Below, one piece after another: positions 26,276 through 31,712 of a DNA stretch of 39,104 nucleotides (the first letter of the stretch is position 1; every line of letters starts with the position of its first letter). The notes under the pieces were generated by a model. That model was not told the DNA's origin and did no database searches. It was given only the letters and a program-made list of their open reading frames with translations. Origin of the DNA: Candidatus Poseidoniales archaeon (lineage in GTDB: Archaea > Thermoplasmatota > Poseidoniia > Poseidoniales > Poseidoniaceae); NCBI GenBank assembly GCA_009887135.1, contig QXYA01000003.1:1-39104 (forward strand). The letters are read 5' to 3'. The translations under genes were made by a program, and so were the position numbers.

Positions 26276-29200
26276 TCACGAACGAAGCCAAGGCGACAGA
26301 GTTCGGCTGTTCTTTGCAATTCCAAAGCCAAATCGTTCTTCGAATGCTCTTGCTACGACTGTGAAATCACCATCGTGAGTTGCAACGATGATTGCACCCA
26401 CATTGTCGATTGGGCGTCCTGAAAGAACTGCTGCATATTGCATAATCATTCGATCTGGTTGCTCTGGGTAGATTTTTCTCCCTTTCAGTTCAGTTCTGTG
26501 GGTTTCACCATAGAATTCTTTCATCTTTGTGAGTTCATCGTAGATTTCTTCATGCTCAATAAAGAAAGTGACCATGTCTTTGGTCAATTCCTCATCGCTG
26601 GAATCGGTTTCAAATTCTTCATCTGAACCGTTCCATGTGGAAAATTCTTCAATCAAGTCTTCAACCATCTTTTCAATGATTTCTGAGGTAAGGGTTGAAT
26701 CTAATGTTTCAGATTCAATGAAGGAATTATCGAAACGTTTTCTGACATCTCCCATAGAACGAGCAATGTTTCGAATCTCTCTGCGAACGACTTCGGGCAG
26801 CCACAAATCGACTCTATCATTTTGTGCTAAGTGAAGGAGATAACGAGCAAAGTGCGAACGTTGATTTGTTGAGTCCTCGAAATGATTTGATCGGTTGAGT
26901 TTTTCTTGTATGCGCTGATAAAGTGCATCGATGACAATGTTTGTATCAACTAAAACAAGAGGCTTGAGAGGCAAGTTACGCAAGTAACGGCGGTCAGAAG
27001 TTTTGATGCTCGCTTGATGTCTTCTGAAGAGCATCAATTCGAGATTAGCAAAGGAGTTGTTCTTTTTTGGGAAGCGTCCAGATAATTGAGCACGTTCTAA
27101 GATACGCAGAGCATCTAACGGAGAAGATTCACTTGCTTGATCTGCCAATGTATGAATTTCCATCGGATCTGGAGAACGCATTTGCATAATGTCACGATAT
27201 CGTCGATCGAATGACTTCGAACTCTGCGTTCTTCGATTTCTTTGAAGTGCATTTGTGGCAGCAAGGATCCTTCCTGTAAACGGCTCATCGGGAAGCGGTT
27301 TGGGATGTTCTTCTGGATATGAATGGAGCAGATCTAGTTCATCTTCTTTGAAGATTGTACGAGTGCGAGTGCGAGGTCCTTCCTCTGTTTCTTCCGTTGT
27401 TGTTTCAGTTGTCTTAACAAAATTCTTGAGCATTGATGTTGCTTTTTCAGTTTCCTGAATCGAAGCCTGGTGTGATACGTCAAGATAAAGTTGGAATCGC
27501 TTTGTAATAGCGGCCCTTAAGTTTGGATGATCGGAAAGAAGTTGCTTTGCTTCACCCCATTTCCTATCAAAGGCTAGATGAATCAATGCCTTCCTATACA
27601 ACATAATCTCTTCATCATAATCGAATTTCTTCGAATCGGCAGCTCGCTTGAAAAGTCGAGCAGCGCTCAAATTCCTTCCTTGAGATGCTTGAAGCGTAGC
27701 TTGGGAGAGAAGTGACCAGATAGAACGTTGATGTGCGCTTTGATACCACTGAACCAGGCCTTCAATACCAAGATCGAACTCATACATCAGTTGACGAACT
27801 CCATCAATAATTGTGAATGGGGCATCGTGCTGATGTAGAACGGTTTCTAACAGCGAGATTACTGCAGCCATATCTTCTCCATTTTCCAATGCAAGTCGGG
27901 CATTGTTCAATCGGAGTTTGGAAATGATTGTTGAGAGAAGCGCTTTCGCAAGTGGCGTAGTTTCTGCATCAACAAGAGTTTCTGCAAGGTTGCCCAGTTG
28001 TGTTTCATCGACGAGGTGTGAACCTCCTGATGAAAGTGCTTTGACGATTTGATTCATTGCCTTGAGACCGTTCTTACCAAGGGACATGCCCAGTTCAACA
28101 TCACTTACTGATTTGTCAATTCGGCCTTCAAGGAGAAGCAGAAGTTTATGCTCATCTTCATTCATCCGTTCAGGTAATTCTGAACTGTGAATATTTTGCA
28201 AGGCCTCTTTTCTTGCATATCGTGCCTGTTTCCAAACTTCTTCAGGGTGAGATGCAGAAAGCAGATGAGCAACAAGAAGGGTTTCGTAGGGATGTGAAAG
28301 AATTGCCAATGGGTTGCCTAGAAGCATCTCTGAAAGGTTATTCAAATCCATTGCCTGAAGGAACACATGAACCGAAATAGCCTGTGATTCTTGCCATCCT
28401 TCCCCATCCATTTGCTTGAGAAGAACAAGAGCTTTCGATCGCAATTCAAGAGGGATTTTCTCTTCTCTTCCAATTGAGATGAGCCCTCCTTCATCGATGT
28501 TTTCAATATTATTAGCCAGCCAATTATATGCATCGACGTTGTCAAGTTCTACTAAGAGAGGAAGTAATTCTGAAGCATCGGATTCATGCTCCAGATTGAT
28601 GGTTTGAATAACAGCCAACGCATCTTCTTTTCGATCCGATGATACGTAAGATTGCAACATCTTCCATCGAACTGCGCCTACGCGCTGGGTCGAAGCTTGT
28701 TGTTCAAGAAGAATCGAAAGACCAGATTCAAGTTGTTCAGTTGAGGGTTTCATTTCATTGATTGGTCCGTTTCTCCAGGCCGCCTCTAATATCGCAATCC
28801 CCAATTCATCATCGTCTTGCTTTAGGAGTTCGTCATCCCACTCCATTGTACCATTTGTTAATCCATAAAGGAGTTGATAGCGATCAGTTTGAATACTCTT
28901 AATGTCATGAGTTCTCTCAAATATTGAATCGATATTTTCGTTCGTGTTCATTGCAATAAGAAGAGAAATGAGAGAAAGGTCGTCTTCTAGTTCCAAGAGG
29001 ATTTGATCAACTTTGGGCCAACGGCCAGAGGAAAGTCGTTTGATGAGGCGCTTCATAGCGACCAATTCTTCAGCAGAAAAACTTGATTCAGATACAGATT
29101 TGAAAACACTAAGACAAGAGGAAATGTTGTATGGATTTATTGAAGCGGCTGACAATTCTATTCCCGCTTTAACATCAGATTCAACCTCGACGATTGGGCA

Positions 29201-29656
29201 TGCTGAGAATTGGCCAAACAAATCACATCGTTTTGCCATTTCGTGCCATACTGGATGTACGCCTTGTTCTAGGCACGTATTTCTCAACTCCTTTTCTAAG
29301 TCACCGCTATCCTCTTCAGACCATTGATCCACGTGAAGGAGTTTGTTTACCAAAATCAAAGCGAAGCGGAGAGCTGGAGATTCAGAATCCATTACAGCGA
29401 CATCTTCTGGAGTAGCAATCGTTGCTTGTTGTTTACCTCTGCGGCGCCCTCGCCTGAATCGTGGAGAGGTCGAAATGGTCTCCCCTTCTTCATCCTGGCC
29501 GGGAAGTTCCGTCTCCAGAACTGCTAATTTAACCAAATCTTTCCAAGGCTTTTCGAGAAGTGTAAACTCTGGGCATTTTCCCACAGTACTGAGGCGTCGC
29601 GACTTAATTGTCTTGAATCCTGCTTCAAGACAAGCCGCGAGATATGTTTCCTGCAT
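26276..29656 (-). CDS. Giant helical-repeat protein with C-terminal PIN-like nuclease domain
   Basis: An 1126-residue cytosolic protein. The first 850 or so residues are nearly all amphipathic helices without a membrane segment, read as TPR/HEAT-type repeats (for example AAVISLLETVLHQHDAPFT, ARLFKRAADSKKFDYDEEIML). After a charged linker a PIN-like domain follows: LVLVDTNIVIDALY (near 903), WLPEVVRREI, QPDRMIMQYAAVLSG (near 1067) and IIVATHDGDFTVVARAF (near 1090). The Asp/Glu residues of the PIN active site are in place, so it could be a metal-dependent RNase. A basic tract near the N-terminus (FRRGRRRGKQQ) may bind nucleic acid. Such long fusions are unlike toxin-type PINs (about 130 aa). 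RNA surveillance or rRNA processing is a guess. Confidence 0.8.
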   Translation of the reverse strand: MQETYLAACLEAGFKTIKSRRLSTVGKCPEFTLLEKPWKDLVKLAVLETELPGQDEEGETISTSPRFRRGRRRGKQQATIATPEDVAVMDSESPALRFALILVNKLLHVDQWSEEDSGDLEKELRNTCLEQGVHPVWHEMAKRCDLFGQFSACPIVEVESDVKAGIELSAASINPYNISSCLSVFKSVSESSFSAEELVAMKRLIKRLSSGRWPKVDQILLELEDDLSLISLLIAMNTNENIDSIFERTHDIKSIQTDRYQLLYGLTNGTMEWDDELLKQDDDELGIAILEAAWRNGPINEMKPSTEQLESGLSILLEQQASTQRVGAVRWKMLQSYVSSDRKEDALAVIQTINLEHESDASELLPLLVELDNVDAYNWLANNIENIDEGGLISIGREEKIPLELRSKALVLLKQMDGEGWQESQAISVHVFLQAMDLNNLSEMLLGNPLAILSHPYETLLVAHLLSASHPEEVWKQARYARKEALQNIHSSELPERMNEDEHKLLLLLEGRIDKSVSDVELGMSLGKNGLKAMNQIVKALSSGGSHLVDETQLGNLAETLVDAETTPLAKALLSTIISKLRLNNARLALENGEDMAAVISLLETVLHQHDAPFTIIDGVRQLMYEFDLGIEGLVQWYQSAHQRSIWSLLSQATLQASQGRNLSAARLFKRAADSKKFDYDEEIMLYRKALIHLAFDRKWGEAKQLLSDHPNLRAAITKRFQLYLDVSHQASIQETEKATSMLKNFVKTTETTTEETEEGPRTRTRTIFKEDELDLLHSYPEEHPKPLPDEPFTGRILAATNALQRNRRTQSSKSFDRRYRDIMQMRSPDPMEIHTLADQASESSPLDALRILERAQLSGRFPKKNNSFANLELMLFRRHQASIKTSDRRYLRNLPLKPLVLVDTNIVIDALYQRIQEKLNRSNHFEDSTNQRSHFARYLLHLAQNDRVDLWLPEVVRREIRNIARSMGDVRKRFDNSFIESETLDSTLTSEIIEKMVEDLIEEFSTWNGSDEEFETDSSDEELTKDMVTFFIEHEEIYDELTKMKEFYGETHRTELKGRKIYPEQPDRMIMQYAAVLSGRPIDNVGAIIVATHDGDFTVVARAFEERFGFGIAKNSRTLSPWLRS

Positions 29657-29763
29657 TGCGCCCCCAACCTATCGCTTGGGATAGAGACTTTCAACTCACC
29701 GACGGCATCATTTCGATAAATCGAAGAGAAACTGATTCAAGATAGCATCTCATGGGATGTAAT

Positions 29764-29770
29764 GAGGAGG
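29764..29770 (+). promoter_or_regulatory. Strong Shine-Dalgarno deciding the start at 29777
   Basis: GAGGAGG, a near-perfect match to the anti-Shine-Dalgarno, sits six bases before the ATG at 29777. It overlaps the codons that follow the earlier ATG at 29762. This favours the inner ATG as the real start of the small membrane protein. Confidence 0.6.
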
Positions 29771-29776
29771 AAGGGA

Positions 29777-30244
29777 ATGTCTGTTCTAAGAACCGCCATC
29801 ATGTTGATTCACCCTCTTCTTGCAGTCATCTTAGTCACCTGGCTTGTACGGCAATACGGGTGGAGAAAGCGAGGAATGACTTTGCGCGGAGAAGAACGGA
29901 AAGCTTCTCTCAAACGTCATCAAAAACATGGCGAATATATCCTATGGGCTGGAATCGCCTTAGCAGCCATCGCATTTCTCGCTCGAGCGGCCTCAGGGTA
30001 CATCGAAGAAGGAGACGTCACCTCAGACCTACTTCCACAAAGTGTTCATGGATATACTGGACCGATCGGCCTGATTCTTCTCTGGCTCGTAGTACGCTAT
30101 GGAAGAGATACAGTTTCAAGCAAAGAACAAGGTGAGAAGTTTTCTACTCAGAGGATGAAACATGGAAGAGCTGCAGATTTGGTCATGATATTGATCATGT
30201 TCCATTCATTCCTTGGATTCATCTACACATTTCAGGTTGTTTGA
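29777..30244 (+). CDS. Four-helix membrane protein, DUF4079/cytochrome b561-like (tentative)
   Basis: About 155 residues with four predicted transmembrane helices: AIMLIHPLLAVILVTWLV, YILWAGIALAAIAFLARA, GYTGPIGLILLWLVV and LVMILIMFHSFLGFIYTF. Histidines recur at helix ends (LIHPL, RHQKHGEY, SVHGYTG, MKHGRA, MFHSF), as in haem-binding four-helix proteins such as cytochrome b561 and DUF4079 families. A membrane electron-transfer role is therefore possible, not shown. Charged loops (RKRGMTLRGEERKASLKRHQ) face the cytoplasm. I use the start at 29777 because of the strong GAGGAGG before it. The gene is divergent from the PIN-domain gene, and its stop lies two bases from that of the DHH phosphoesterase gene. 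Confidence 0.62.
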   Translation: MSVLRTAIMLIHPLLAVILVTWLVRQYGWRKRGMTLRGEERKASLKRHQKHGEYILWAGIALAAIAFLARAASGYIEEGDVTSDLLPQSVHGYTGPIGLILLWLVVRYGRDTVSSKEQGEKFSTQRMKHGRAADLVMILIMFHSFLGFIYTFQVV

Positions 30245-30246
30245 AT

Positions 30247-31227
30247 TCACTTGATTCGAAGTGTATTCTCACGGTCGTTCCACATTTGGATCCAATCATT
30301 AAGATTGGAATCGAGTCCCGGTGGTTGAATTCGACAACCGCAGGCGTTAGCGTGCCCGCCACCATGAGGATCAAATGCTGTTGCAAGTTTTGATAAATCG
30401 TATCGGTTTTGTCCATCCTTGATGAACGAATTTGCATAGAAACTCGCCGACAGTGGGGGGCGATTTGGCGTGGACAAATCTCCATCGCTGTAGCCATGTA
30501 CAACACAGCACGCATCTGCCTTATCGCCAACGTGGGCAGTGATGAGATATCCATTTGAGCGTATACCTGAGTCATCAAGACGGCATATCGCTAACCGATC
30601 GACGATTTCTGTTTTTTCTTGAACGATTTGAACTGCATCAATACGTTGTACTTGGGCTGTTTTCATTCGTTCAGAGACGAGTCCATCGCCTGTGATGTCT
30701 GCTAATTCAGTACATGTTGTAAACAAGCGCAAGAGGTGCTGCATGTAGGCATCATCATTCGAAGACAGGGTGCGGGAGAGTTGTAAAATTGGCCCGTCTT
30801 GGAGAAAATCCTCTCGAGATATGCCACCGGAATCCAAGGCATCGACCATCGGCATAATTTCTTCAAGATGCGTGAGGTCAAATTGATGTTTAAACAATTC
30901 ATAAGCCAATCGAGCGGCTGAAGGCGTATGCTCCCAATGAACAACCCCCCCTCGTTGCGTGAATTCTTTTTCTTCAACCTCGTTTGGTTTGTTTGTTAAA
31001 TGGTGATCGAGATACCACCCACTTGCTGGGTGAAATGGTAAATCCACTGTCACGGTCTTTGAATCAATAACATCGTCCAGCATCCCTGCTCGGAGAATAG
31101 CCGCATGTCCGAAAACGACTTCAGCCTCTGGATATGCTTTGAGAAGTACCGCTGCTGCACACATTCCATCCAAATCGGAATCCGCCACAATTCGATTGAT
31201 TTCAGGGAACTCATCGACACCAGTCAT
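30247..31227 (-). CDS. DHH family phosphoesterase
   Basis: About 326 residues with the DHH superfamily layout. Near the N-terminus is IVADSDLDGMCAA with the metal-binding Asp cluster. Next come TVDLPFHPASGWYLDHHLT with the defining DHH (near 72) and DALDSGGIS. The C-terminal DHHA1 domain has the substrate-binding FDPHGGGHANACGCRI (near 283). Members hydrolyse small nucleotides such as pAp, nanoRNA or cyclic-di-AMP products, or are RecJ-like exonucleases. The short length and the GGGH domain favour a nanoRNase/oligonucleotide-type enzyme over full RecJ. The track start at 31323 overlaps the divergent Nudix gene and adds an unusual leader. The ATG at 31227 begins 13 residues before the first motif and is better. 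Confidence 0.87.
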   Translation of the reverse strand: MTGVDEFPEINRIVADSDLDGMCAAAVLLKAYPEAEVVFGHAAILRAGMLDDVIDSKTVTVDLPFHPASGWYLDHHLTNKPNEVEEKEFTQRGGVVHWEHTPSAARLAYELFKHQFDLTHLEEIMPMVDALDSGGISREDFLQDGPILQLSRTLSSNDDAYMQHLLRLFTTCTELADITGDGLVSERMKTAQVQRIDAVQIVQEKTEIVDRLAICRLDDSGIRSNGYLITAHVGDKADACCVVHGYSDGDLSTPNRPPLSASFYANSFIKDGQNRYDLSKLATAFDPHGGGHANACGCRIQPPGLDSNLNDWIQMWNDRENTLRIK

Positions 31228-31310
31228 ACTAATTCCTTCTGTGCGCGGGTCTTGAACGTATTGGAGTTTAATGGCGAAAAGGCCAAAGCATTGGATTCGA
31301 GGGACTAGAT

Positions 31311-31712
31311 ATGGAGACTTCATGCGGCGTAGTTCTTGTCAACTTTGATGCGGTTCTCCTTCTACAATATCCACAAGGACATTGGGATTTACCTAAAGGA
31401 CATGTTGAGGTGACAGATAACGACCACCTTGCGACAGTTCGAAGAGAATTAGGTGAGGAAACGGGCATTACTGAAATTACATTCATTGAAAACTTTGTAG
31501 AACGAACAGCCTATACATACAGACACAAGGGAAAACGAATGAACAAAGAAGTGTTTTGGTTTTTAGCCGAAACAGAACAACTCGACGTGGAACTTTCCCA
31601 CGAACATCGCGGTCATTTGTGGCTAGATTGGGAACAAGCTCTTGCTCAGCTAACACATGATGAAACAACATCTGTTGTTCGAGCAGCTTGGGAACATATG
31701 AAAAAGCAATAA
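31311..31712 (+). CDS. Nudix hydrolase (Ap4A hydrolase-like)
   Basis: A 133-residue Nudix protein, probably cleaving dinucleoside polyphosphates (Ap4A) or another nucleoside diphosphate derivative. The N-terminal ETSCGVVLVN and LLLQYPQGHWDLPKGHVE match the Ap4A-pyrophosphatase branch. The Nudix box is GHVEVTDNDHLATVRRELGEETGI. Compared with the consensus G-x5-E-x7-REUXEEXGU it has one extra residue before RELGEETGI and Asp in place of the first Glu, while the catalytic REL-EE core is intact. It is divergent from the DHH phosphoesterase (83 bp between starts), and both act on nucleotides. Its stop abuts the stop of the cobalamin adenosyltransferase gene. Confidence 0.9.
   Translation: METSCGVVLVNFDAVLLLQYPQGHWDLPKGHVEVTDNDHLATVRRELGEETGITEITFIENFVERTAYTYRHKGKRMNKEVFWFLAETEQLDVELSHEHRGHLWLDWEQALAQLTHDETTSVVRAAWEHMKKQ

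Follow-up and report, generated by a model that had tools for sequence, protein, structure and literature searches.

A giant helical-solenoid protein of the Poseidoniales with a predicted C-terminal PIN nuclease domain

The locus described here raises the question of what an archaeal protein of 1,126 residues, in which a long helical array leads into a PIN-like nuclease domain, does in the cell. It lies in a 39,104-nucleotide stretch of DNA (the window, which here always means that whole stretch) from a Poseidoniales (Marine Group II) archaeon whose assembled genome comprises 1.87 Mb and is 84% complete. In the surface ocean, Marine Group II rank with the most abundant archaea, and the interest of the protein lies in its being conserved and order-restricted in these organisms while lacking a curated family name in the libraries that we searched; NCBIfam gave no match, and our literature search found no account of it.

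The gene, its locus and its distribution

The gene and two of its neighbours are as follows.

26276..29656, minus strand: whole solenoid-PIN gene, 1,126 amino acids plus stop, without an operon partner; the upstream neighbour is divergent and the downstream neighbour convergent
29762-30241, plus strand: DUF4079-like membrane protein, the divergent neighbour, with invariant H17, H53, H96, H134 and H148
30247-31323, minus strand: DHH-phosphoesterase-like protein with the motif ADSDLDGMCAAAVL

An open reading frame check of the window reproduced exactly the coordinates that an earlier note had given for a 1126-aa protein, and added the strand, which that note had not stated. The frame is uninterrupted and contains all four motifs quoted there (VDTNIVID, LPEVVRREI, PDRMIMQY and ATHDGDF). 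It is coding beyond doubt, as protein searches and alignment yielded full-length homologues with 27-97% identity.

The gene was found in 240 of the 293 genomes of the order Poseidoniales, and in 32 of the 35 order genomes that are at least 90% complete and at most 5% contaminated. It is normally present in single copy, many apparent double matches reflecting a single gene that is split between contigs. When a profile built from 32 diverse homologues was run against a 293-genome sample of the phylum, all 77 matches fell within the order; the class's other family and the remainder of the phylum yielded nothing. The PIN profile alone likewise gave no match outside the order in this sample at E<=0.01. 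The lineage restriction proposed earlier thus holds in the phylum sample for both the full-length and the PIN-only profiles.

Two genera (families and genera carry our working labels f1, f2 and g-numbers) entirely lacked the gene in the samples, namely, g9, with four genomes, and g14, for which eleven genomes are listed, and a profile search confirmed the absence in representatives of both. All three high-quality genomes without the gene belong to g14. At the corresponding locus in g9 and g14, the DHH-like gene, an isocitrate-dehydrogenase-like gene and usually the methyltransferase gene adjoin, with the PIN gene missing. In a maximum-likelihood tree of 32 proteins, one branch (support 100/99) set the two families apart, the pattern expected under vertical inheritance. 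Together, order-wide presence, clean absence at the locus and the tree are therefore most simply explained by a gene that is ancestral to the order and was lost at least twice. Since two whole genera live without it, the gene is not essential to the order.

The flanking genes, encoding a methyltransferase and the DUF4079-like membrane protein, lie on opposite strands, and both the position of the locus and its neighbours were conserved among the Poseidoniales loci compared. No antitoxin gene adjoined the solenoid-PIN gene at these loci and no operon partner was seen, in agreement with the earlier observation that no antitoxin is near. A VapBC toxin-antitoxin module is ruled out by the size of the protein (1,126 aa) together with the identity and the opposite strands of its neighbours. 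The most consistently adjacent upstream gene is the DUF4079-like one, which we considered as a partner and rejected: it is missing from g9, as is the PIN gene, but g14 retains it, often at another place, and it was not found in one genome that carries the PIN gene (G150), so that there is no consistent link.

Some further features of the locus were recorded. The DHH-phosphoesterase-like gene, whose product had no Pfam match at E<=0.01, is a conserved companion of the PIN gene, adjoining it or lying close by at the loci compared, and the gene-less genera have it too. In the second family, a conserved protein of ∼1,210 aa starting with MTQSKIKGDAAQEVEERGMIIERRFTQAGKDPFDQFDW (cluster c19) is encoded near the locus, both where the PIN gene is present (L044, L047) and where it is absent (L093-L098).

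The fixed locus and vertical inheritance also speak against the protein being an immune or abortive-infection effector, in which a sensor solenoid would free a PIN toxin upon infection. Large solenoid-plus-effector layouts are common among defense proteins and PIN toxins are common effectors, so the design would fit. We nevertheless consider this role improbable, as the gene is near-universal rather than patchy in its occurrence, no PADLOC family was matched (only E=0.15) and no viral copies were found. Searches of PADLOC, PHROGs and IMG/VR gave no support for a defense or viral origin, and a viral structure library returned only weak PIN-like matches.

The C-terminal domain and its acidic site

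The following features, all on the minus strand, make up the C-terminal part of the protein.

26276..26971, minus strand: residues 896-1126, predicted PIN nuclease domain (AlphaFold2, Foldseek, hhalign; weak Pfam PIN_12 match)
26945..26947, minus strand: D904 in VDTN, end of PIN strand 1, predicted catalytic acid 1; invariant in 32/32, aligns with the first Asp of VapC
26777..26779, minus strand: E960, predicted catalytic acid 2; invariant in 32/32, aligns with the VapC Glu
26471..26764, minus strand: residues 965-1062, insertion in the PIN domain, acidic and helical, together with a short beta hairpin (AlphaFold2 models)
26453..26455, minus strand: D1068, predicted catalytic acid 3; invariant in 32/32, position assigned by fold order
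26366..26374, minus strand: D1095 and D1097 in ATHDGDF, predicted catalytic acid 4 and possible fifth acid; invariant in 32/32, weak alignment with the VapC T-D-x-x-F motif

When modeled separately, the C-terminal 255 residues gave an AlphaFold2 model (pLDDT 84, pTM 0.84) with the strand-helix order of a PIN domain. Foldseek searches with this model returned VapC structures at the top (3zvk and 5ecd, probability up to 0.99), followed by SMG6 (2hww) and, below it, EST1A (2dok), which is the same human protein; further down the list came 5k36_K, a chain from the structure of a nuclear RNA exosome (E=1.5). The E values were modest, at 0.05-1.7 overall and 0.05-0.4 for the best PIN matches, plausibly because the insertion of ∼100 residues (965-1062) breaks up the PIN fold. 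This insertion has a net charge of -16 and is less conserved in the 32-row alignment.

As an independent test of the fold, we gathered VapC-type PIN proteins from the phylum, aligned them and compared the profiles by hhalign. The solenoid-PIN family matched the VapC-type PINs with E=1.9e-4, D904 and E960 standing opposite the VapC Asp and Glu. Removal of the insertion raised the hhalign score to 37.4, while the maximum among 60 column shuffles was 20.8. With the C-terminal PIN half alone, ATHDGDF aligned weakly with the T-D-x-x-F motif of VapC (score 21.4). The protein thus shares the core PIN fold with VapC toxins (PF01850) but differs from them in its giant scaffold, its long PIN insertion and the lack of an antitoxin. 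As a side observation, no PF01850 VapC was present in five Poseidoniales genomes sampled: G002, G004, G006 and G001 had zero matches and the single match in G000 sits at its Nob1 gene, with up to 17 matches in other genomes of the phylum. Toxin-antitoxin PINs look nearly absent from Poseidoniales.

Similarity to known families was low. Among Pfam families, PIN_12 (DUF4935, PF16289) matched the PIN part best, being hit by 8 of the 32 members with a best E value of 0.0086; the window protein scored 13.7 bits, below the curated threshold of 32. Sequence searches of the PDB with whole-protein and PIN profiles returned nothing or chance matches only, and the PIN part had no match.

Conservation of the acids, in contrast, was complete. 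D904, E960, D1068, D1095 and D1097 were identical throughout the 32 diverse homologues, of which the most distant share 27% identity, in an alignment in which only 45 of the 1,126 positions are invariant. By a rough calculation, which assumes that invariance is randomly spread, all five named positions would be invariant by chance with a probability of about 1e-7. The model, the VapC and SMG6 matches and an hhalign score above the shuffles agree with the earlier proposal of a PIN fold, and no homologue in the alignment lacked the acids that had been read as intact. On this structural and alignment evidence, we hold it very probable that the domain is a PIN nuclease fold with an intact site. 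It is, in contrast, quite unlikely that the protein acts mainly as a scaffold with a catalytically idle PIN: weak similarity to known PINs and the subthreshold Pfam score would fit such a loss, but a dead PIN such as that of SMG5 would show the reverse of the invariance seen here.

In SMG6, the metal site of the PIN domain consists of D1251, E1282, D1353 and D1392, and a fifth Asp is supplied by SMG5; in some PINs, e.g., PRORP1 and VapC15, this fifth residue is present in cis (PMC12923823). By analogy, D1097 beside D1095 might be such a fifth acid, which is a guess.

The helical scaffold

The part of the protein that precedes the PIN domain contains three features of note.

26972..29656, minus strand: residues 1-895, predicted TPR-like helical solenoid of ∼50 helices (AlphaFold2, Foldseek, TPR_19)
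29423..29497, minus strand: residues 54-78, disordered loop (pLDDT <50), acidic and then Arg/Gly-rich, candidate RNA-contact segment
27350..27415, minus strand: residues 748-769, predicted beta hairpin breaking the solenoid (AlphaFold2)

AlphaFold2 run with the 32-row alignment modeled the full protein with a mean pLDDT of 82.6 and a pTM of 0.64, placing ∼50 helices at residues 2-889 and the start of a mixed alpha/beta C-terminal domain at residue 896; at this pTM, the placement of the PIN domain relative to the solenoid is uncertain. The best Foldseek matches of the solenoid were IFT-A, Ctr9 of the Paf1 complex, Ski3 and TPR subunits of the APC/C, with small-subunit (SSU) processome subunits at weaker rank. 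The superhelices of Ctr9, Ski3, APC/C and IFT-A, which are not nucleases, matched over long stretches. TM scores against TPR arrays were low (mostly 0.1-0.3, at ∼12% identity), as expected since long superhelices are flexible. In Pfam scans, TPR_19 matched only 2 of the 32 members, the better one with E=1e-4.

Of the repeat-like helices of ∼850 residues described earlier, the helical array was thus borne out by AlphaFold2 and Foldseek, and its length is closer to 890 residues. Repeats at the sequence level were not: self-comparison of the profile of the helical part detected none, and the array is therefore helical-repeat by structure only. Conservation of the solenoid is highest next to the PIN domain (residues ∼560-895). 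The loop at residues 54-78 reads RFRRGRRRG in the window protein (consensus RRRGRRGGRG), with R72 invariant and Arg/Lys-rich character in all 32 rows; Arg/Gly-rich patterns are frequent in RNA-binding segments.

Candidate functions

The combination of these parts is a new architecture inside the known PIN superfamily, and its closest counterpart in layout is SMG6, in which a TPR-like helical domain and a connecting helix precede a C-terminal PIN (PMC12923823). The likeness to SMG6/EST1A is one of layout only, comprising a TPR-like helical body that leads into a C-terminal PIN bearing D/E/D/D acids, and the SMG6 PIN belongs to the best structural matches of the archaeal one. Unlike SMG6, the archaeal protein shows no 14-3-3-like domain in its solenoid of ∼890 residues and has an insertion of ∼100 residues in its PIN. 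No sequence homology to SMG5/6/7 was detected: the PDB searches gave no SMG match and no such Pfam family was hit. Since homology in sequence was not found, we do not class the protein as SMG6.

Taking fold, acids and layout together, we favor, with somewhat more than even confidence, an RNA endonuclease guided by its scaffold. Such an enzyme would be dedicated and divalent-metal dependent, its C-terminal PIN cutting single-stranded or exposed RNA at a two-metal site made up of D904, E960, D1068 and D1095, with D1097 as a possible fifth ligand. The long TPR-like solenoid would dock the PIN either onto an RNA substrate or onto a partner complex, RNA affinity may be increased by the Arg/Gly-rich loop close to the N terminus, and specificity would come from the scaffold instead of an antitoxin, by the same logic as in SMG6. 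Catalysis, the RNA substrate and the scaffold role are what we infer, RNA in particular since the wider PIN/FEN superfamily includes DNA-cutting relatives.

The earlier note had suggested an RNA surveillance or ribosome-processing nuclease. A ribosomal role would have the PIN make a lineage-specific pre-rRNA or ribosome-linked cut, with the solenoid as a ribosome-docking arm. The PIN nucleases Nob1 and Utp24 mature rRNA and thus provide a precedent, and the SSU processome matches and the near-universal presence of the gene in most Poseidoniales would fit. Nob1 (PIN_6, PF17146), however, was kept as a separate protein in 16/16 genomes tested, although eight of these lack the solenoid-PIN gene, which speaks against a replacement of Nob1. 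The loss of the gene in two genera with its neighbors intact would be unusual for an rRNA maturation enzyme, and no ribosomal gene was recognized beside it in the loci compared. We therefore regard rRNA processing as unlikely. Nor does the gene follow the exosome genes with which co-occurrence had been proposed as a check: exosome-type RNase PH-domain proteins were found in 16/16 genomes tested, so that there is no covariation.

By the analogy to SMG6, RNA surveillance appears the most plausible class of function, although we put the chance that it serves in the surveillance of RNA or of translation in particular well below even. At similarly low odds, the protein may be an archaeal scaffold-guided endonuclease of mRNA or translation surveillance, restricted to Marine Group II, whose SMG6 layout was reached independently or from a shared root. 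To our knowledge, archaea have no established case of a dedicated, scaffolded endonuclease acting in the quality control of mRNA or translation. A nearly order-wide solenoid-PIN protein with a perfect predicted site that was dropped by two genera offers a natural comparison for finding the substrate.

The pairing of helices with a PIN also recalls tRNA-processing enzymes. PRORP combines helical PPR repeats with an NYN/PIN-like nuclease, the same logic as in the solenoid-PIN protein, and the PIN of HARP carries a helical insertion (PMC10941002), as does the PIN described here. A comparable tRNA-processing role is nonetheless improbable. Of 116 order genomes, 102 had canonical archaeal RNase P RNA, and they included genera that carry the gene as well as genera that lack it, which excludes substitution for RNase P; Pfam scans gave no PIN_5 (HARP) match, with neither PIN_5 nor NYN among the matches listed. 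Some of the RNase P RNA matches were long or duplicated: those at G050:C74:8630-9249 (620 nt, suggesting an insertion) and G089:C8:38121-38698 are unusually long, and G111 and G067 each have matches at two places.
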